The position numbers were made by a program, and so were the translations under genes. The notes under the pieces were generated by a model, which was given only the letters and a program-made list of their open reading frames with translations, did no database searches and was not told where the DNA came from. DNA of 64,000 nt from Kribbella antibiotica (GTDB lineage Bacteria; Actinomycetota; Actinomycetes; Propionibacteriales; Kribbellaceae), in assembly GCF_004349055.1 (NCBI RefSeq), contig NZ_SMKX01000006.1, positions 1 through 64,000 of the forward strand, given 5' to 3'. Shown in pieces: positions 2,774-43,207 of the stretch (positions are counted from its first letter, which is position 1; each line of letters opens with the position of its first letter).

Positions 2774-3748
2774 ATGAAGCGCCCGGCGGTACGGATCACG
2801 GATGTCGCGGCACTGGCCGGCGTCTCCGCCGGGACGGCCTCCAAGGCGCTCAACAACACCGGCCAGCTCAGCCAGGACACCCGCGAGCGCGTACGGCGTG
2901 CTGCGGCCCAGCTCGGCTTCACACCGGACGTGCGCGGGCGCGCGCTGTCATCGGGGCGCACGTTCACGGTCGCCCTGCTGACCACCGACAGCTCCGGCCG
3001 GTTCAGCATCCCGATCATGCGGGGCGTGGAGGACGTGCTGAGCGCCGGCGAGCTGGCGACTGTGCTGTGCGACACCCGAGACGATCCGCTCCGCGAGCAG
3101 AGCTATCTGCGGTCGCTGGTGGCACGCGGGGTCGACGGCATCGTGGTGACCGGCCGACGAACCGAGCCGCGGCCACCGATCGACGTACCGCTGCCTGTTG
3201 TGTACGCGCTGGCTGCCTCGACCGATCCGGCAGATGCGTCGGTGATCGTCGACGACGCCGCCGGTGCGGCCACTGCGATCAAGCACCTGCAGGCTCTCGG
3301 GCGCACCCGCATCGCGCATGTCACCGGCCCGGCCGATCACCGCTCCGCTGTCGAGCGCGCCCAGGCGATGACGGCTCTGGTCGGCGAACCGCTGTTCGGT
3401 GACTGGAGTGAGCAGTGGGGTCGGCAGGCGACCGACCTGCTGCTCCGCACGCACCCCGACGTCGACGCGATCAGCTGTGGCAGCGACCAGATCGCCCGCG
3501 GTGTCTGCGACCGCCTGCGCGAGCTGGGGCGCGCCGTACCGGCTGAGATTGCGGTTACCGGCTACGACAACTGGCCGGTGATGGCACTGGCCAGCCGGCC
3601 GCCGCTCACCTCGGTGGATCTGCGACTTGAGGAGCTCGGCCGACGAGCAGCGCAACTCCTGCTGGATGCGATTGCCGGCAACCCGCATCACGGCGTACTG
3701 GAGCTTCCCGCGCAGCTCGTCCCGCGGGAATCGACACTAGGTCCCTGA
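2774..3748 (+). CDS. LacI-family transcriptional regulator
   Basis: This 324-residue repressor has the LacI architecture. The N-terminal helix-turn-helix and hinge (RITDVAALAGVSAGTASKALN) occupy roughly residues 6-60. A periplasmic-binding-protein-like effector domain follows, with the usual DGIVVTG, HVTGPADHRSA and AVTGYDNW segments. It is divergent from the GH127 gene, so the likely effector is an arabinose-containing sugar, an inference from context. No ribosome-binding site is seen before ATG 2774, and a -10-like GATAAC lies 8 bp upstream, suggesting a leaderless message. A palindrome at 2730-2755 overlaps this promoter and would allow autoregulation. Confidence 0.9.
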   Translation: MKRPAVRITDVAALAGVSAGTASKALNNTGQLSQDTRERVRRAAAQLGFTPDVRGRALSSGRTFTVALLTTDSSGRFSIPIMRGVEDVLSAGELATVLCDTRDDPLREQSYLRSLVARGVDGIVVTGRRTEPRPPIDVPLPVVYALAASTDPADASVIVDDAAGAATAIKHLQALGRTRIAHVTGPADHRSAVERAQAMTALVGEPLFGDWSEQWGRQATDLLLRTHPDVDAISCGSDQIARGVCDRLRELGRAVPAEIAVTGYDNWPVMALASRPPLTSVDLRLEELGRRAAQLLLDAIAGNPHHGVLELPAQLVPRESTLGP

Positions 3749-3754
3749 GTAGCC

Positions 3755-4138
3755 CTACTTGGTGGCTTGACCTCGCCGGGCCCACCGGAACGCGACGGCC
3801 GTCCAGAGGATGGCCGGCACGCCGAAGATCGCTGCCGCGACCTCGCGGCCGAAGACCAGGAACACCAGCCCCAGCAGGAAGAACGGCGCCGCCAGCCAGG
3901 CGGCGCCAACAAATGCCGCCCAGCGCCAGCGACCGGTCGGCCGCGGCGTTGGCTGGTACAGCGACGGAGTGGGTAGGCCCACGAAGATCGGCTGCAGATC
4001 GGCATGCGTGACCGCCTCATGCAGCCGGTCGACCCGCAGATGCAGCTCCGCCTCGTCGAGCCGGCCGATCGCAAACTGCTCGGACAGCTCGTCGGTACAG
4101 ACCCGCCGTTCCTCATCGGTCAGCCGGATACTGGCCAT
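3755..4138 (-). CDS. DUF1707 membrane protein
   Basis: From ATG 4138 the product has 127 residues. Residues 1-50 (MASIRLTDEERRVCTDELSE..., with GRLDEAELHLRVDRLHEAVT) match the DUF1707 pattern common at the N-terminus of small actinobacterial membrane proteins. Two hydrophobic helices follow, and the tail is basic. The frame is open back to an ATG at 4240, but the intervening Arg/Ala-rich residues do not look conserved. It converges with the lacI-type gene with a 6-bp gap. Function is unknown; DUF1707 is thought to be a non-enzymatic binding or regulatory module. Confidence 0.7.
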   Translation of the reverse strand: MASIRLTDEERRVCTDELSEQFAIGRLDEAELHLRVDRLHEAVTHADLQPIFVGLPTPSLYQPTPRPTGRWRWAAFVGAAWLAAPFFLLGLVFLVFGREVAAAIFGVPAILWTAVAFRWARRGQATK

Positions 4139-4282
4139 GCGTCGTCGCGCCGCGACAACGCGTGCCTCCTGACCAGCAGCCGCCGCCCGACCCATCAGGT
4201 CAGCCGGCTTCACCGGACGCCGCTCCACCATCCGCCTCACGCTCCCTTCCTACGAGTGTGCCAGACGATGGGGCAGCGCCAG

Positions 4283-4444
4283 GTCGGGTGTGGCGGCCCA
4301 GCGCCGTAGCGAGCAAGTGCTCGGTGCGGTGCATCGGTGCGCTGGAGGGGAGGCCTCGATGCTTTTCCATCGTGGCCTTTCCTCCAGTGCGGCGAGGTGC
4401 CGTGCCGAGTGCTGCGCAGTAGGTGATGGGTCGCCACACCCGAC
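4283..4444. repeat. Long-hairpin intergenic element, copy 1
   Basis: A 162-bp imperfect palindrome fills the space between purL and the DUF1707 gene. The outer arms GTCGGGTGTGGCGGCCCA (4283-4300) and TGGGTCGCCACACCCGAC (4427-4444) match at 17 of 18 positions. Pairing continues inward with interruptions to the apex CCTCGATG (4354-4361), loop CTTTTC, CATCGTGG (4368-4375). The apex and flanking GGAGG...TCCTCC and GCGAGGTGC blocks recur in the element at 43014-43180, so the two form a repeat family. It may act as a purL terminator, an RNA structure or a non-autonomous mobile element. Confidence 0.65.
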
Positions 4445-4458
4445 CAAGGTCCTCAGAG

Positions 4459-6720
4459 TCAGCCGAGGGCGGCCGGGAGGGTGGCGGACCAGACCTCGCG
4501 GAGCTCGGTGAGGGGGATCTCGAACTGGTCCTGTACGTCGAGGGTGTCGCCGGTGATGACGCCGATCTTGGTGTGCGGGAAGCGGCGGGCGGTGCACATG
4601 TCGGTGAAGCGGACCTCTTCAGTGCGCGGTACGGCGACCACTGCGCGGCCGGCGGACTCGGCGAACAGGAACAGGAACGGGTCCAGGTTGTCCGGCGCCC
4701 ACACCCGCGCACCGACGCCACCGCGGAGGGCGGACTCGACCAGCGTCTGGGCGACGCCGCCGTCGGACACGTCGTGGGCGGCGTCGATCAGGCCGTCGCG
4801 GGAGGCGTTGATCAGGATGTCGGCGAGCTGCTGCTCGGCCGCCAGGTCGACGGCCGGCGGGCGGCCTCCGAGGTGGCTGTGGACGACATGCGCCCACTCC
4901 GAACCCGACAGCTCCTCGGCGGTCTCACCGAGCAGGTAGAGCTGGTGGCCCTCCATCTCGCCGGTGAAGCCGATCGGCGTCCGGCGGGTGACGTCGTCGA
5001 TGACACCCAGTACGCCGATGACCGGCGTCGGCAGGATCGCCACGTCGCCGGTCTGGTTGTAGAACGACACGTTGCCGCCGGTGACCGGGATGCCGAGCTC
5101 CTTGCAGCCGTCGACCAGGCCGCGAATCGCCTCGGTGAACTGCCACATGACGTCCGGGTCCTCGGGGGAGCCGAAGTTCAGGCAGTCGGAGACGGCGACC
5201 GGACGGGCGCCGGTGGTGGCGACGTTGCGGAAGGACTCGGCCAGCGCGAGCTTGGCGCCGGTGTACGGGTCCAGCTTGGTGAAGCGGCCGTTGCAGTCGG
5301 TGGAGACCGCGACACCGAGGCCGCTGGTCTCGTCGACGCGGATCATGCCGCTGTCCTCGGGCTGCGCGAGCACCGAGTTGCCGAGCACGTAGCGGTCGTA
5401 CTGGTCGGTGACCCAGGACTTGTCGCACAGGTTCGGCGACGCGATCAGCTGCAGCAGGGTCGCCCGCAGCTCGTCCGCAGTCGTTGCCCGCGGCAACTTC
5501 TCGGCGCCGTCTGCCTGCAGCTCGTCCTGCCAGGACGGCCGCGCGAACGGACGGTTGTAGACCGGGCCCTCGTGCGCGACGGTCTCCGGCAGTACGTCGA
5601 CGACGCGCTCACCGTGCCAGTCGATCTCGAGCCGGCCGGTGTCGGTGACCTCACCGATCACGTCGGCCTGGACGTCCCACTTGGCGCAGATCTTCAGGAA
5701 CTCCTCGACGTTGGCCGGCGTCACGCAGGCCATCATCCGCTCCTGGGACTCGCTCATCAGGATCTCTTCCGGCGACAGCGAGGCGTCCCGCAGCGGCACC
5801 TTGTCCAGCGAGACGCGCATGCCGCCGTCGCCGGCGCTGGCCAGCTCCGAGGTCGCACAGGACAGACCGCCACCGCCGAGGTCCTGAATACCCTCGACGA
5901 CCTTCGCGGCGAAGAGCTCGAGCGTGCACTCGATCAGCAGCTTCTCCATGAACGGGTCGCCGACCTGGACCGCGGGACGCTTGGTCGGGCCGCCTTCGGC
6001 GAAGGTCTCGCTGGCAAGGATCGAGACGCCGCCGATTCCGTCACCACCGGTCTTGGCGCCGTACAGGATCATCTGGTTGCCGACGCCGGTCGCGTTGGCC
6101 AGGTGCAGGTCCTCGTGCCGCATCACGCCGACACACAGCGCGTTCACGAGCGGGTTGCCGATGTAGGTCGGGTCGAAGACGACCTCACCACCGATGTTCG
6201 GCAGGCCGAGGCTGTTGCCGTAACCGCCGATACCGGACACGATCCCCGGGAGCACGCGCTTGGTGTCCGGAGCGTCCAGCGGACCGAAGCGCAGCGGGTC
6301 CATCACCGCGACCGGGCGGGCGCCCATCGCGATGATGTCGCGGACGATGCCGCCGACACCGGTGGCCGCACCCTGGTAGGGCTCCACGTACGACGGGTGG
6401 TTGTGCGACTCGACCTTGAAGGTGACCGCGTAGCCCTCGCCGATGTCGATCACGCCGGCGTTCTCACCGATCCCGGCGAGCATCTTGCCGGCCGGCGTCT
6501 CCTGCGGGATCTCACCGAACCGCTTGAGGTGCACCTTGGACGACTTGTACGAGCAGTGCTCGCTCCACATCACCGAGTACATCGCCAGCTCGCAGCTGGT
6601 GGGGCGCCGATCCAGGATGTCGCGGATCCGCTGGTACTCGTCCGGCTTCAGTCCGAGCTCGGCCCACGGCTGCTCGACATCCGGGGTGCTGGTGGCGTTG
6701 GTGACGGTGTCGGTCGACAC
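4459..6720 (-). CDS. purL: Phosphoribosylformylglycinamidine synthase, large subunit
   Basis: This 753-residue small-type PurL carries out ATP-dependent conversion of FGAR to FGAM, with ammonia supplied by PurQ and the complex bridged by PurS. The conserved [10 protein letters not shown] motif with its catalytic His (H55) is present, as are two PurM-like repeats ([28 protein letters not shown]). Length is normal for the three-subunit enzyme. The start is GTG 6720, preceded by AGGAG in TAACGTG spacing, directly after the stop of the membrane-protein gene. It is the last gene of purS-purQ-membrane protein-purL. The long opposite-strand ORF through here is a codon-bias shadow. Confidence 0.97.
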
Positions 6721-36821: not shown

Positions 36822-39800
36822 TTAGGCGTCGGTGGGGCGGTGGAGGGTTTCCAGGAGGTGGGTTAGCACTTTGTCTGGGGATTGGATCCAGTCGGCGGTG
36901 AGGACGTGGTGGACTCGCCAGCCGGTGGTTTTGAGGGCGGCTGGGTGGGTGGTGAGGCGTTCTAGGAGGGTGTCGGCGGAGACTCGGGCTGGGGTGTCTA
37001 CGAGGACTGCCATGCGGTAGCCGGGGTCGCCGGGGAGGCGGAGGGCCAGGTCGCAGCGGAAGACGGAGTTGCCGACGGTGGTTTCGACCTCGACGCCATG
37101 GGCTTCCAGCGCCTCGCGGAGTTGGGTGACAACGGCAGCCTGTACGGCGGTAGCAGTCGCCGGTGCGGACGCGCGACGGGCTGGGGCGGTGAACGAGGCG
37201 AGCGCGGCGCGGGCTGCGGGGACGTCGCCTCGGGAGACTGCGGAGGCGTAGCCGAGGAATCGGCGGAGGGTGTTGGCGCCGTCGTTGTAGGTGTTGGTGA
37301 TCGCCTCGGGCTCGATGCTGCTGACGACGACCATGTGGTGGCGGGCTCGGCTGAAGATGACGTTCAGGCGCTTCTCACCGCCGGAGGTGTTGATCGGGCC
37401 GAAGTTCATCAGCATGCGGCCGTCGGCACCGGCGGCGTAGCAGACGCTCATCAGGATGATGTCGCGCTCGTCGCCCTGGACGTTCTCCAGGTTCTTCACG
37501 AACAGGCCGACGTCTTGCTCGCCCTGCGTCCGCACCTGTTCCGCGTCGTAGAGCGCGCCGAACTCAGGATCGCCCTCCGCCAGTTCGTCCAGCGCACGCT
37601 CGATTTCGGTCTGCTGGGCCTCGGAGAACGCGACAATCCCGATGCTCTTCCCGGTCTCCCGCGACAACAGCTCTCGCACGAGTTCCGCGATCCAGCGGGC
37701 CTCGGCCGGGTTGGTCCGCCGTACGTAGACGCCGTCGGCCAGCCGGATCGAGGTGATGCTGCCGTTCAGCAGGCTGTCGCAGACCTCGCTCACCATCGGC
37801 GCGTCCGAGCGCAGGAGCCACGGCGGCGCGACGTTGGCCGGGAGCCGATCCGGGACTGTGGCCAGCCGGCTTTGGTAGAACGCCGAGTTGCTGAACGAAA
37901 TCAGCGCCTCCGAACGACTGCGGTAGTGCCAGGTGAGCATCGTGGAGGCGAGTCGCAGCGCACTGATCGAGAGGAAGCTGTCCTCTGTCAACGCGACCCC
38001 GACCTGCTCCGAGGACTCCTCCTCAAGATCCCCATCCGAGCGGACCCGGAAGTACTGCGTCGGCGGCAGCTGCATCTGGTCGCCGACGACGACCACCTGC
38101 GGCGCCCGATGGAGGGCCGGAATCGCTTCCTCCACTGGGATCTGGCTCGCCTCGTCGTACACGACGACATCGAAGTCCGCGGTCAGTGGCAACGTGTCCG
38201 ACACCGACGACGGACTCATCAACCAGACCGGCCGGAGCGCAGACACCACGGCACCCGGAGCACCCGAAGCCAGGTCGCGGATCGACCGGTACCGCATCAC
38301 CTTGCCGAACTCGTGCTCCACCTCCCGCCGTCCGGTCGCGAACTGCTTCTTCCGAGCGCGGTCGTCCGGCGACATCCCGGTGACGCTCTGCTCGGAATGC
38401 TGAACCTCAGCGAGGAACCGCCGCCGAACCCCCGCGACGATCACCTCCGCCTCGAGCTCGGTCAGCTCGTCGTACACGACTCCCAGCTCGCCGACGATCG
38501 AATCCACCCGCGCTGACGGCAACCGCAGCGCCGCGGCCGATCGGGCCCGCTCCCATTCCGCCGCACACACGGAGTACTCAAGCTCATCAGGTGACGCGTC
38601 CAATCGCCGTACCGCGGTCTGCACGGTCGTCGATGCGGTCTGCAATTCGCGCAGCACCGGACCGACCGCCCGCACGACAGAGTCCGCGGCGATGAGTCGA
38701 TCCACCATCTCGCGGAGCGCGTCGACAGTCAGCGCCGCGTACTCCGCATCCAGCAGCTCCTGCGTCGGCCCCGAGGCAGCATCAAGCGCGCCCGCCAGCA
38801 ACACCAACCGCTCCGGTACGCCGTCCGCCAGCGCGAACCGCCAATCCGGCAACCGGGAATCAGCGCGGACCGCGGCCAGCCGCTCGACCAGCTCGCGCGG
38901 ATCGTCCACGCCCCACTCGGCCCGCTGCTGCTCGGCATGCGCAACCACTGCTGCAGTCGCCGAATGTGCAGCCACCAAGTCCGTCAGTATCTCCACCACG
39001 GCCGGCCGCACGGCCCGGCCCGAGCTGTCGAACCGGCTGTTCACCAGGCTCTTGACGCGTCGCCAATCCCCAGCCAGGAAGGAAAAAGGACCACCTTCCT
39101 TGCTCTGGGCAATGATCAGGGCCGACTTGGCATCGGCCGGAGCCAACGGCTCACTCCACCCCGCTGCACCCTCCCAAGCACTCCGCTCGGCGCCGGCCAA
39201 TCGCTCTCGCTCCGCGGCACTCGAGGCGAGACGCATGGCAGCATCCGAGCGTGGATCCAGCGCCTGCGCCCGATCCCGCCCGGCTAGGGGCGCCAACACC
39301 CGCCCCAACCTGGCGAGCGCCGCCACCTGACCCACAGTCCAATCACTCTCAGCCTCGGCTGTGATTGCTGCGGTTAGGGCGTCGGCAACGGTCGTCCATG
39401 CAGTGCGGACTGTGCGGGCGCGGTCGGACAGCTCGTCATCCGCCCAGCGAGCGGCAGCTACGTAGGCCAATGGGCTCCGAGCCAGCACTCCTCCGGTCTG
39501 CGGATCGGCGCTCGCCAGCTCTCGAGCTATCGCACGGACGGCATCGCGCGCAGGCCACCACTCGGCGGCCCGCGGAATCAGGTCGCCCTCAGCCTCGAAG
39601 CGATGGTCACGGAGCTCGGCGAGGCGGTCGACAACCTCCCGGAGCCGGGGTGAGCCCGCAGCCAGGATGCCCTCGAAATCGCCGACGGCGACCAGCAACC
39701 GGTCAACCCGGGCGACCAACTCGGAGCGCCGTTCGGTCAACTCGTCGAGGTTGTCCTCGCTGGCCAGCCAGGCTTCGTAGGTCTCGCGCAGCCCGTGCAC

Positions 39801-41849
39801 GAACGCCTTCTTGTCCGCCTGCGAGTCGTGGATCAGCGTGCACAACCCGTCCAGCCGCCGGCTCGCCAGCCGCGCGTGCACAACATCCAGCGCCGCCCGC
39901 TTCTGGCACACGAACAGCACTCGCTGCCCGCGCGCCACGAAGTCCGCGATCATGTTGGTGATCGTCTGCGACTTCCCCGTCCCCGGCGGCCCTTGGATCA
40001 CAAAGCTCTCGCCACGCTGCGCCCGCGCGATCGCACCGACCTGCGAACCGTCCGCCGGCACGACGAGGTGTCGCTCCCCCACCGGCAGCTCCGGCGGCAC
40101 CGGGCTGATCGGTCGCGGCCGATCCGAGAACAACTGATCGAACGACGCCGCGCTCTCACCCGAAGAAAGCAGCTCGTCGTAGTCGCGGACCAGCCCCAAC
40201 GTCCGGTAGTTGAAGTTCGCCAGCGACACCGCACACAAGTCGACGTCCCACGAATACGGTCCGCCGCCCGTGTCGAGCGAATAGGTGTCAGTCTCGATCG
40301 CCGCCGGATGCCGCGGCTCCGCGCCCAGCGCGACCCCCAGCGGCAGCACCTGCTGGACGATCTGCGACCGGAAGATCTGCACCCCGAGCGGCTGATAGTC
40401 CGACCGCCGGTACGAATACGCATACTGCTTGCCCGTGAAACCGACAGCTCCGCGCCGCTTGCCCCGCTGGTAGCTGCGCAGTTTCACGATCGCCCGCTGC
40501 CGCACGAGGTCGATCCGCGGCTTCTCCTGCAGGTGCAGCTGCAACCCTGGCTCGGTCGCCTGAATCTCCTTCGCCAGCCGCTCGTGGAGCATCATCAGCG
40601 CACCACGCTCGGACAGATCCACCGTCTCCGGCAACGTGATCCCGTACAGCTGATGCAAGTGATGACGCAGTGTCGGATTGACCTCGGCGATCGGATCAGT
40701 CACCCGGATCGTGTACGAGTCACGCACTCCGCGCTTCTTCGCCAGCTCAACCTTCACCAGGACCAAGGGCGAGGCCAGTCGCGTCCCCGGATCGTTCTTC
40801 AGGTCATGCCAGCGCAGGAACGCCGGCACCAACCGCAACTGATCCTGCCCGTACTCCGTCCGGTCCCGACGCGCCGTCGCGATCAGCTTGTCCAGCGTGC
40901 TCGCCGCGTACGGCGCCTCGTCGTACCGGATCCACTTACCGAGCGCCTGGGTCTTCCCCAGCAGTTGCGCTGCCAGGTCGTCGCGCCACGTGAACAACTG
41001 CTCCGCGCGGATCGTGCGGACGTCGAGCATCAGCGGCACCGACACCTCGGTCAGGTTCAGCGTCTGGCCGGTCGGGCGGAAGTTGATCAACCGGTTCCGC
41101 CGCGACAGATCAAAGAGCCGGTTCCGGAGCGCGCCGAGCACCGCCGTACGGCGGTCAGCTCCCGCAGCCGTGATCGCGGTGACGTCGAAGTCGAGCGGCT
41201 GGTCGCGGTAGTTCTCCAGCTGCTCGATCAGCGAGTGCAGATCCTGCGCCCGGCGGTGCCGATCCGGCTCGGCCATCTGCGCGGCGATCGAGACGATCAC
41301 CGGATGCAGTTGCGGCGCCAGCCGATAAAGGTTGCCGCGGGCATCGATCAGCTCGGCCACGTCCTCCGGACGGGACAGATCCAGGCCGATCCCCAGCGCC
41401 AGCAGTAGCTGGCCGAGGCTGTAGACATCGGTCAGCGGGTCGTGATGGCCGACCACGTGCTCCCAGCTCTGCCACCCCGGCACATGCGTCGGCGCAGTGA
41501 TCGCATCCGGAACGGGCTCAACCACCGACGTCTTGGCCCGACCACCGTCCGAACCGAGATCCAGCTCCGCCTGGCGATGCGCCACCACCTCGACGGCCGA
41601 GCTTCGTGGCCCCTGGCGACGGTCGATCTCCATCACGGCCAGGGTCGGTCGCCCGGCATCCTCGGGCCCGAACCCAAGCTGATGCTGATCATCAACAGTC
41701 AGCCGATCCAGCCCACGCAGCGGCGCCACCAGCCCTCGCTCGTGCACCTCGGCAGTCGCCCGGAACAGCGGCAGCACTGCGGCGAGCAGCGCATCGCTCC
41801 CGAGGCCATCCTCGGTCACGGCCAGCACGACCAACTCTTCGGCGCTCAC
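36822..41849 (-). CDS. Pseudokinase-DUF4011-SF1 helicase-Vsr-like nuclease
   Basis: This 1675-residue protein starts at GTG 41849, overlapping the protease stop as GTGA. Residues ~25-220 resemble a kinase C-lobe (AEVHERGLV, WQSWE, DVYSLGQLLLAL) whose HRD and DFG are replaced. Residues ~238-600 hold a DUF4011 region (ALRNRLFDLSRRNRLINF). A split superfamily 1 helicase follows: Walker A GPPGTGKSQT with K626, Walker B VVYDEASQIP with D1232-E1233, then LTWHYRSRSEALI, VQGDERDIILMSV and RLNVIFSRAR. Residues ~1570-1675 are a Vsr/MTES_1575-like nuclease (FRCDLALRLPGD with D1600, AVLVDTP, WRVHHVLTADWI). The DUF4011-helicase-Vsr core resembles the anti-phage protein Hhe. The protease partner and pseudokinase lobe suggest a protease-coupled nucleic-acid defence system, which is inferred. 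Confidence 0.85.
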   Translation of the reverse strand: MSAEELVVLAVTEDGLGSDALLAAVLPLFRATAEVHERGLVAPLRGLDRLTVDDQHQLGFGPEDAGRPTLAVMEIDRRQGPRSSAVEVVAHRQAELDLGSDGGRAKTSVVEPVPDAITAPTHVPGWQSWEHVVGHHDPLTDVYSLGQLLLALGIGLDLSRPEDVAELIDARGNLYRLAPQLHPVIVSIAAQMAEPDRHRRAQDLHSLIEQLENYRDQPLDFDVTAITAAGADRRTAVLGALRNRLFDLSRRNRLINFRPTGQTLNLTEVSVPLMLDVRTIRAEQLFTWRDDLAAQLLGKTQALGKWIRYDEAPYAASTLDKLIATARRDRTEYGQDQLRLVPAFLRWHDLKNDPGTRLASPLVLVKVELAKKRGVRDSYTIRVTDPIAEVNPTLRHHLHQLYGITLPETVDLSERGALMMLHERLAKEIQATEPGLQLHLQEKPRIDLVRQRAIVKLRSYQRGKRRGAVGFTGKQYAYSYRRSDYQPLGVQIFRSQIVQQVLPLGVALGAEPRHPAAIETDTYSLDTGGGPYSWDVDLCAVSLANFNYRTLGLVRDYDELLSSGESAASFDQLFSDRPRPISPVPPELPVGERHLVVPADGSQVGAIARAQRGESFVIQGPPGTGKSQTITNMIADFVARGQRVLFVCQKRAALDVVHARLASRRLDGLCTLIHDSQADKKAFVHGLRETYEAWLASEDNLDELTERRSELVARVDRLLVAVGDFEGILAAGSPRLREVVDRLAELRDHRFEAEGDLIPRAAEWWPARDAVRAIARELASADPQTGGVLARSPLAYVAAARWADDELSDRARTVRTAWTTVADALTAAITAEAESDWTVGQVAALARLGRVLAPLAGRDRAQALDPRSDAAMRLASSAAERERLAGAERSAWEGAAGWSEPLAPADAKSALIIAQSKEGGPFSFLAGDWRRVKSLVNSRFDSSGRAVRPAVVEILTDLVAAHSATAAVVAHAEQQRAEWGVDDPRELVERLAAVRADSRLPDWRFALADGVPERLVLLAGALDAASGPTQELLDAEYAALTVDALREMVDRLIAADSVVRAVGPVLRELQTASTTVQTAVRRLDASPDELEYSVCAAEWERARSAAALRLPSARVDSIVGELGVVYDELTELEAEVIVAGVRRRFLAEVQHSEQSVTGMSPDDRARKKQFATGRREVEHEFGKVMRYRSIRDLASGAPGAVVSALRPVWLMSPSSVSDTLPLTADFDVVVYDEASQIPVEEAIPALHRAPQVVVVGDQMQLPPTQYFRVRSDGDLEEESSEQVGVALTEDSFLSISALRLASTMLTWHYRSRSEALISFSNSAFYQSRLATVPDRLPANVAPPWLLRSDAPMVSEVCDSLLNGSITSIRLADGVYVRRTNPAEARWIAELVRELLSRETGKSIGIVAFSEAQQTEIERALDELAEGDPEFGALYDAEQVRTQGEQDVGLFVKNLENVQGDERDIILMSVCYAAGADGRMLMNFGPINTSGGEKRLNVIFSRARHHMVVVSSIEPEAITNTYNDGANTLRRFLGYASAVSRGDVPAARAALASFTAPARRASAPATATAVQAAVVTQLREALEAHGVEVETTVGNSVFRCDLALRLPGDPGYRMAVLVDTPARVSADTLLERLTTHPAALKTTGWRVHHVLTADWIQSPDKVLTHLLETLHRPTDA

Positions 41850-43003
41850 TCGGCCGCCTCCCCGACCAGCCGAGCGCGTTCCTTGTCGCTCCACCCGAGC
41901 TCGCTGTCCGCAACATCGACGTACCCACCAAGCCCAGTACGACGGGCAATCCCGAGCGACGCGATCAGCCCATCAGCACCGGTATCGGGATCAGCGGTGG
42001 CCAGGTCCAGCAGCAGGTACGCCAGATAGCGCCTGGTGGAGTCGGCCAACGGCCGGGGTCGAGGCAATGGCGCGCCATCAACCGGCCGCACCGTCAGCGG
42101 CTCGTCGAACCGCAACACCGACCCAGGCACCCCCAACGGCCCCGGCGGATCCGCGAACCCGGCCGCCGCCACCGCGACCGCTTCCGTCGCCAACCCGTCC
42201 GTCCCAGCGATCAACGCCGCGAAGTCCCGACTGACCTCAGCCAGCAACTCGGCATCGAGCAGATCGGGCGCATCCACGTCGAGCGCGCCGGTGACCACGG
42301 ACTCCACGTTCTCCTCCGCCAGCCAGCCCTTCAACGCCCAGGCCCGCATCACCGCCTCGGGATGCGACGTCCCCCGGCTCCCCGAACTCAGATCGACCGT
42401 CTCCGCCTGCCGCAGGTACGCCGCCGGGTCCGCCGAACTCAGCCCGGTCTCCAGCTTCAGCAACGCGCGAATCGTCGTACCGAGGTCGCCGCACGCGGTC
42501 AGTGCACCGCGGTCGGCAAACAGCTCGGTCGCCAGCGACCAGCGTCGATGCGTCTCCAGATATTGCGCCGACGTCCGCGCGTCACCCGCCGCCGCATCAA
42601 GCAAACGATCGACAGCGAGATACGCGCCGTCCTCGCTCTGCCACAACAGCCGATGGGCCAGCTCGTGCCCAATGACGGCCGTCAGCTCGTCTTCGTCCAG
42701 CCGATCGATCAGGGCGCCCTGGAACAGCACGACCGCCCGCCCAGCCTGATGCAGGTACGACGCGTTGGGCGCGCCGTTCACCTGGTAATACTCGACCGCG
42801 CTGTCCATCTCGAGGGCCTCAGCAGCACGCTGACCGGCCCGATGCACGCCCGGGTGTGCGTCAGCGGTCAGGAGATAGGCATTCCGGCGCAAGGCATCGT
42901 CGAGCTCGCCGTCGGGCGCACCCCGCAACGCAGCCCACGCAGCCTCGTCCTGACGGCGGACAACCGTCAGGACGGCTCGGTGATAACCCAGGACGGACAA
43001 CAT
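41846..43003 (-). CDS. Soluble M48-like zinc metalloprotease
   Basis: The 385-residue protein has the zinc protease motif VIGHELAHRLL (H113, E114, H117) and a downstream ELFADRGAL (E160...D164) matching the ExxAD third-ligand motif of M48 peptidases. An M48-type HEAT/TPR-like C-terminal region without membrane helices follows. M48 enzymes such as HtpX and BepA are usually membrane-bound or periplasmic; this one has no signal or transmembrane segment, so it should act in the cytoplasm. ATG 43003 lies 10 bp from a long palindromic element. It is translationally coupled to the pseudokinase-helicase-nuclease gene. A role in cleaving a host or phage protein after helicase activation is a hypothesis. 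Confidence 0.8.
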   Translation of the reverse strand: MLSVLGYHRAVLTVVRRQDEAAWAALRGAPDGELDDALRRNAYLLTADAHPGVHRAGQRAAEALEMDSAVEYYQVNGAPNASYLHQAGRAVVLFQGALIDRLDEDELTAVIGHELAHRLLWQSEDGAYLAVDRLLDAAAGDARTSAQYLETHRRWSLATELFADRGALTACGDLGTTIRALLKLETGLSSADPAAYLRQAETVDLSSGSRGTSHPEAVMRAWALKGWLAEENVESVVTGALDVDAPDLLDAELLAEVSRDFAALIAGTDGLATEAVAVAAAGFADPPGPLGVPGSVLRFDEPLTVRPVDGAPLPRPRPLADSTRRYLAYLLLDLATADPDTGADGLIASLGIARRTGLGGYVDVADSELGWSDKERARLVGEAAE

Positions 43004-43013
43004 GGCGGCAACC

Positions 43014-43180
43014 TAGTGTCGGGAGTCGGGAGGTCGGCGAGTGCCGGAGGGGTCCAGGTGCGTGCATCGCAAGGCGGAGGAGCGTCCTCGATGCGGTGTT
43101 CATCGTGGATGCTTCTCCAACGCAGCGAGGTGCGTGCCTGGGCGCCTCCGGTGCCGTCGAACTTCTGACTCCCGACACTA
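43014..43180. repeat. Long-hairpin element, copy 2, with perfect terminal repeats
   Basis: The element begins TAGTGTCGGGAGTC (43014-43027) and ends GACTCCCGACACTA (43167-43180), perfect 14-bp terminal inverted repeats. Pairing continues inward (GGAGGTCGGCG/CGTCGAACTTCT, CCGGAGG/CCTCCGG) to the apex CCTCGATG (43086-43093), CATCGTGG (43101-43108). The core matches copy 1 at 4283-4444. It occupies most of the space between the siderophore ATPase and the protease gene and forms the upstream region of the protease operon. No transposase is nearby. A MITE-like repeat or a structured RNA leader are both possible. Confidence 0.7.
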
Positions 43181-43207
43181 ATCGGGCCCGCCGACAAATT
43201 GGATCGG

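Follow-up and report, generated by a model that had tools for sequence, protein, structure and literature searches.

To our knowledge, bacterial helicases related to the one described here, which share a DUF4011 region, are known only from phage defence, and in bacteria we know of no protease that is coupled to a helicase and dedicated to damaged DNA. In Mokosh type I, a helicase is fused to a kinase domain and the effector, the phospholipase D (PLD) nuclease MkoB, is encoded by a separate gene. Two anti-phage proteins come closest among described relatives: ProA (NCBIfam NF058533), which combines DUF4011, a split superfamily 1 (SF1) helicase and an MTES_1575 nuclease in that order, and Hhe (NCBIfam NF042953), a single DUF4011–helicase–Vsr-like protein. 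Here we describe a two-gene operon from a 64,000-nucleotide stretch of Kribbella antibiotica (contig NZ_SMKX01000006.1, positions 1 to 64,000; hereafter the window), in which a helicase of the same architecture is preceded by an M48-family metalloprotease. The pairing of these two genes is far beyond chance, since it is conserved across phyla and their divergence is mirrored (r = 0.97). We put the probability at roughly 0.45 that the two products form one complex, a DNA-damage-induced helicase–protease that acts on proteins bound to DNA.

A protease gene paired with a DUF4011 helicase gene

The first gene of the operon (41846..43003; this and all other gene and domain coordinates of the window are on the minus strand) encodes a soluble M48-family metalloprotease of 385 residues, recognised by Pfam, by its sequence and by an AlphaFold model. 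The second gene (36822..41849) encodes a 1675-residue protein made up of a pseudokinase lobe, DUF4011, an SF1 helicase and a degenerate restriction endonuclease (REase) domain. Its start codon is the GTG inside a GTGA overlap with the end of the protease gene, and this stop/start overlap is kept in 25 of 27 Kribbella and Nocardioides loci and in most of the remaining loci. An earlier reading of the sequence alone (the original prediction) had described a soluble M48 protease overlapping a 1675-residue protein by GTGA, and both genes and every motif that it named were located as claimed.

The helicase resembles ProA and Hhe in architecture and falls well short of both families. Its score against the ProA profile was 665 bits (682 for a verrucomicrobial member), below the cut-off of 1500, while single-gene homologues scored 1772–2317. 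The ProA-type proteins that we examined had neither an N-terminal kinase C-lobe nor an M48 partner; they mostly retain the REase motif, and some carry DUF3320. Against Hhe the window helicase scored 436 bits, where the cut-off is 2000, and Hhe has intact IECDG and RDRD motifs and no protease. The Mokosh helicase is also related (the MkoA match, 126 bits, was best over the C-terminal motor of the window helicase), but the partner here is an M48 protease (28/28 genomes, 43/44 loci) rather than a PLD nuclease, and only the C-lobe of a kinase is present. The best PADLOC match of the paired helicases was PDC-S37. In the literature searched, the name ProA/Prometheus turned up solely in papers that build on DefenseFinder.

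In a maximum-likelihood tree of the motor, a single branch (100/100) split the paired helicases from fourteen unpaired DUF4011 helicases. The paired helicases form one clade, sister to ProA and Hhe, and a profile of the kinase C-lobe matched them and none of the unpaired proteins examined. The relation to Hhe asserted in the original prediction is therefore supported, with Hhe and ProA as sisters. Its statement that no described system with this combination of protease and pseudokinase-helicase was known to it also agrees with our search of the literature, mainly open-access papers, which turned up no M48–helicase or DUF4011–protease system, though an earlier description is possible. The nearest report is of an M48 gene within a restriction-modification/DarTG defence island (PMC12255303).

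Among 197 genomes (the window genome and its relatives), both genes were present in 28 and neither in 169, with no genome carrying only one. A protease profile run against 84,980 species yielded 44 protease loci, and a helicase was present at 43 of these, directly downstream in 42 and separated in one. Paired loci were found in Kribbella, Nocardioides, Cellulomonas, Kineosporia, Verrucomicrobiota, Paraburkholderia, Arenimonas, Denitromonas, Rhodobacteraceae and Planctomycetota, and span at least four phyla (Actinomycetota, Pseudomonadota, Verrucomicrobiota and Planctomycetota). The one solitary protease (L110, 9836-11041), from a Blastopirellula metagenome-assembled genome, had no helicase nearby; it is the most distant homologue, and its zinc motif reads HELSH. 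The converse search, across a random phylum sample with helicase residues 1–720 as query, found a sole full-length helicase of the paired kind, which was also accompanied by the protease. Mirror-tree analysis gave a correlation of r = 0.97 between protease and helicase distances (0/2000 permutations), and of r = 0.93 with most Kribbella left out.

The protease is thus not found mostly without the helicase (28/28 genomes and 43/44 loci are paired), nor is the pair a housekeeping feature of all strains, the two outcomes that the original prediction had bet against. Within the genus it occurs in 25 of 38 genomes, the window genome included, and another shows a clean deletion. In this strain (G019:C2; L058 9648-9781), one deletion fuses protease codon 30 to the last helicase codons, and the scar retains the promoter element, 30 protease codons and the helicase tail, with the flanks on either side left in place. 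Here, then, the module disappeared as a unit.

At the locus where the two genes are separated (L108), a gltX-like (glutamyl-tRNA synthetase-like) gene on the opposite strand (3059-4662) stands between protease and helicase, both of which are kept. One record in the survey, named Streptomyces sp. SID13031 (L076), is probably misnamed, because it groups within the genus Kribbella (G036).

Domains of the two proteins

The protease scored 44.2 bits against the Pfam M48 model (cut-off 20.3). Its zinc-binding HELAH motif occupies residues 113–117 (42653..42667) and is followed by ELFAD at residues 160–164. Across 24 homologues from four phyla, HExxH, E160, D164, H214 and N80-A81 are invariant or nearly so, although the conservation of the zinc motif is partly built in because some of our search patterns demanded HEL[AS]H; pairing was no part of those patterns and is unaffected. 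No transmembrane-like segment was found in the protease (maximum 19-residue hydropathy 1.41), and its AlphaFold model is confident and soluble (pLDDT, the model's per-residue confidence score, 86.6). The closest folds were 3c37, BepA, ZMPSTE24 and Ste24p, with Z of 8.5–9.5 for BepA, ZMPSTE24 and 3c37; the BlaR1 protease domain is also similar (Z 8.2). Pfam score, invariant zinc motif and downstream Glu, and fold all place the protein in M48, and the original description of a protease with HExxH at 113–117, ExxAD at 160–164 and no membrane segment holds by sequence, Pfam, hydropathy and model. Inspection by eye had hinted at a TerB-like C-terminal domain, but the fold search matched almost nothing beyond residue 239. 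We also considered a SprT/SPRTN-like protease and rejected it: the SprT-like Pfam score was 14.7 bits, below the cut-off of 25.6, and the fold search ranks M48 first.

The second protein opens with a kinase-like lobe (residues 1–216; 41202..41849) that was modelled at a pLDDT of about 90. In VIA-align it matched PknB 98–278 (Z 14.1, root-mean-square deviation 3.0 over 155 residues), and all of its listed structural matches were kinases. The N-lobe is missing, since the match starts only at PknB residue 98, and HRD and DFG are absent from the alignment; with the model aligning to the C-lobe only, an active protein kinase was rejected. Judged from the model and the alignment, residues 1–216 are a pseudokinase lobe, catalytically empty and not an enzyme. 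The kinase-like lobe of the original prediction is borne out by this fold (a kinase C-lobe, Z about 14), minus its N-lobe.

DUF4011 follows at residues 244–398 (40656..41120; Pfam PF13195, 57.8 bits against a cut-off of 22.2). The helicase is split, as had been proposed. Its motif I region (residues 600–667; 39849..40052; Pfam AAA_11) holds the Walker A lysine K626 in a GPPGTGKS motif that is invariant in the helicase alignment. It is separated by a fast-evolving insert (about residues 668–1161; 38367..39848), with few conserved columns and many indels over most of its length, from the C-terminal motor, which runs from Walker B D1232 to motif VI (residues 1222–1514; 37308..38186; Pfam AAA_12, 66.1 bits). 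Walker A and B are conserved, and the motor motifs DEAS (with D1232), GDxMQLPPT and KRLNVIFSRAR are invariant or nearly so. DUF4011, AAA_11/AAA_12 and MTES_1575 each scored above their own Pfam cut-offs, and both Walker residues lie where they had been placed.

The REase_MTES_1575 domain at the C-terminus (residues 1576–1669; 36843..37124; Pfam 46.8 bits) is degenerate. Active-looking relatives show D...IECDG...RDRD; here Leu1616 replaces the catalytic Glu, and RDRD is lost. The Glu is absent in all 40 paired helicases (Leu in 38, otherwise Trp or Ile), as is the RDRD (RDR[DE]) motif (40/40), while the Asp residues that correspond to D1600 and D1618 are retained, as are the GW and W that define the fold. 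Unpaired DUF4011 helicases kept the Glu in 9/14 cases and the RDR motif in 11/14. The intact REase motif of an Hhe/ProA-type nuclease effector is therefore missing from the paired helicases, and the C-terminal nuclease is probably dead. Because the catalytic Glu is absent in 40/40, the effector is likely to be the protease; on the most parsimonious reading, the REase domain now serves to bind DNA and the role of effector has passed to the protease. The Vsr/MTES_1575-like domain of the original prediction is thus present by Pfam, but its catalytic residues are lost and it does not stand as an active nuclease. For the same reason D1600, which had been put forward for mutation, would not give a clean catalytic mutant.

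Paired helicases of Verrucomicrobiota and Pseudomonadota carry an added C-terminal WGR domain, and one carries an added BRCT domain. These additions follow the degenerate REase domain in the non-actinobacterial loci L098, L100, L101 and L103 (at the C-terminal ends) and L108 (residues 1764–1832). Among the unpaired helicases, three actinobacterial ones (L135-L137) also lack the REase Glu, with LLD in place of ECD, and may represent another change of effector.

The operon promoter and possible functions of the pair

A conserved element precedes the operon in Kribbella. The pattern [TC]NGTCNG-N10-TANNNT lies 29–50 nt before the protease start codon in 24/24 Kribbella homologues and is retained even where the operon sits at unrelated chromosomal positions; only three other matches occur in the 0.96 Mb searched. 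The published consensus for LexA-independent DNA-damage promoters of mycobacteria is tTGTCRgtg-8 nt-TannnT (PMC5656591), and their regulator PafBC is activated by single-stranded DNA (PMC11804915). The Kribbella element is a relaxed form of this PafBC consensus, usually with C at position 2, and all 24 copies agree with the consensus in this relaxed form.

In three Kribbella genomes the pattern was found 28, 16 and 15 times, where its reversal matched 1, 0 and 6 times; with the strict consensus, two of these genomes gave 12 and 7 matches, compared with 0 and 0. Elsewhere, the genes directly downstream of the pattern encode UvrA, the large subunit of exonuclease VII, a LigD primase-polymerase and MgsA/RarA, together with an HD-domain dGTPase-like protein, a DEDD-GIY-YIG exonuclease and a RadA-like ATPase. 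The genome also encodes a Pup-ligase homologue, and some 5 kb downstream of it lie tandem WYL genes. Since the promoter pattern is conserved, precedes repair genes and fits the published consensus, we infer that the Kribbella operon belongs to the DNA-damage regulon, and we predict control by PafBC.

Genes for a DUF3090 protein, a RibD_C-like protein and an unannotated protein also lie behind a damage-type promoter in Kribbella (L163, L164, L170) and are candidate new damage-response genes. The Cellulomonas copies of the operon (L081-L088) mostly have TGTC-N12-TATCGT upstream, with spacing as in Kribbella, which is possibly a diverged damage promoter.

If the pair is a damage-induced helicase–protease complex, DNA damage would produce single-stranded DNA that activates PafBC, and the operon would be switched on. 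The SF1 helicase, as the motor for sensing and targeting, would load on damaged or stalled DNA. The dead REase-fold domain, joined in other phyla by WGR or BRCT, would be its DNA-binding foot, and the protease, as the effector, would dock on the pseudokinase lobe and/or DUF4011. ATP-driven translocation would then carry the protease to proteins crosslinked to or stuck on the DNA, which it would cut. The target would be DNA rather than RNA because of the WGR and BRCT domains in relatives. The proposed logic is analogous to that of SPRTN, Wss1 and SprT, where helicase or DNA-binding parts bring a metalloprotease to DNA, though the protease family is unrelated. The more specific proposal of a dedicated bacterial machine for the repair of DNA–protein crosslinks, damage-induced and functionally convergent with SPRTN/Wss1, strikes us as somewhat unlikely. 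If the helicase–protease reading is correct, a DUF4011 helicase has exchanged its nuclease for a protease and entered the DNA-damage response, which would link anti-phage helicases with genome maintenance, and such proteins may be given the wrong function when annotation pipelines call them Hhe- or ProA-like.

Several observations weigh against this reading. The promoter element is clear only in Kribbella and in one other actinomycete (L096), no SOS-type/LexA box was found upstream of the non-Kribbella copies, and the promoter of the window strain is itself altered by an inserted element. The distribution of the pair is patchy (25/38 in the genus and rare elsewhere), which is unusual for core repair. 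Both sister families, Hhe and ProA, act against phages, and the single-stranded DNA to which PafBC responds (PMC11804915) can also be produced by phage infection.

The main rival is an anti-phage system with a swapped effector, in which an Hhe/ProA-like helicase with a dead nuclease of its own would sense phage DNA or replication intermediates, the M48 protease would cut phage or host proteins, and the damage promoter would raise the dose during infection, when phage too generate single-stranded DNA. The closest described relatives of the helicase are anti-phage proteins (ProA at 665 bits, Hhe at 436), the pair is patchily present, lost as a whole unit and widely spread across the phylogeny, and Mokosh offers a precedent, joining a related helicase to a kinase domain while a separate gene encodes the effector. 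An M48 gene has also been seen in another defence island (PMC12255303).

The surroundings of the pair are harder to reconcile with a defence role. Many Kribbella share one ancestral locus, where the pair is flanked by an FKBP/membrane-protein segment on one side and a siderophore transport operon on the other; elsewhere it sits in other places. Neighbours at 31 loci were mostly metabolic genes. When 110 neighbours were scanned with PADLOC, the matches were single and scattered, largely to generic kinases and SNF2 helicases, and we rejected membership of a defence island, the context that had been envisaged originally. The protease was not found in 72,556 plasmid and 50,697 phage records, whereas related helicases matched 437 plasmid records, and viral contigs yielded a single weak partial match to the protease. 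There is thus no enrichment in defence islands or mobile elements, and the pattern of context and mobility is unlike that of most defence systems. What survives of the defence module first proposed is the conservation of the two genes as a module, its kinship with Hhe/ProA, the pseudokinase lobe and a protease located in the cytoplasm. We consider a function of the pair in phage defence less likely than the damage-induced role; it is not our first reading because the Kribbella promoter is shared with DNA-repair genes and the protease is absent from plasmids and phages.

The protease might instead serve damage signalling, with the helicase sensing DNA structures and the protease cleaving one specific regulator, such as a repressor, an anti-sigma factor or a toxin-antitoxin partner. 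The likeness of its fold to the protease domain of BlaR1, a signalling protease (Z 8.2), the suitability of a pseudokinase lobe for scaffolding and the damage promoter are in keeping with this, but no conserved third gene that might encode a substrate adjoins the pair at the Kribbella and other loci examined, and we consider the idea improbable. Surveillance of RNA, by an Upf1-like helicase on RNA or stalled ribosomes whose protease removes stalled or nascent proteins, is very improbable, for although the best PDB sequence matches of the helicase are SMUBP-2, UPF1/Nam7 and Sen1, the WGR and BRCT domains of its relatives and the DNA-repair promoter point to DNA.

An inserted element in the promoter of the window strain

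In the window, the PafBC/recA-P1-type element reads TTGTCGGCG-N8-TAGTGT (43175..43197, minus strand) and is the sole match in the window on both strands. Its last six bases come from an inserted element of 167 bp (43014..43180, no strand assigned) with 26-nt terminal inverted repeats (43014-43039/43155-43180), which interrupts the operon promoter at its -10 region. The genome holds another copy with 95% identity, at G000:C309:27446-27613, along with about nine diverged ones, and on the strength of these copies we regard the insertion as a miniature inverted-repeat transposable element (MITE). Among the Kribbella loci compared, the promoter is split in this way in the window strain only. The insertion puts about 170 nt between the promoter element and the start codon. 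One end of the MITE brings a TAGTGT of its own; the promoter may thus have remained functional, then with a structured leader.

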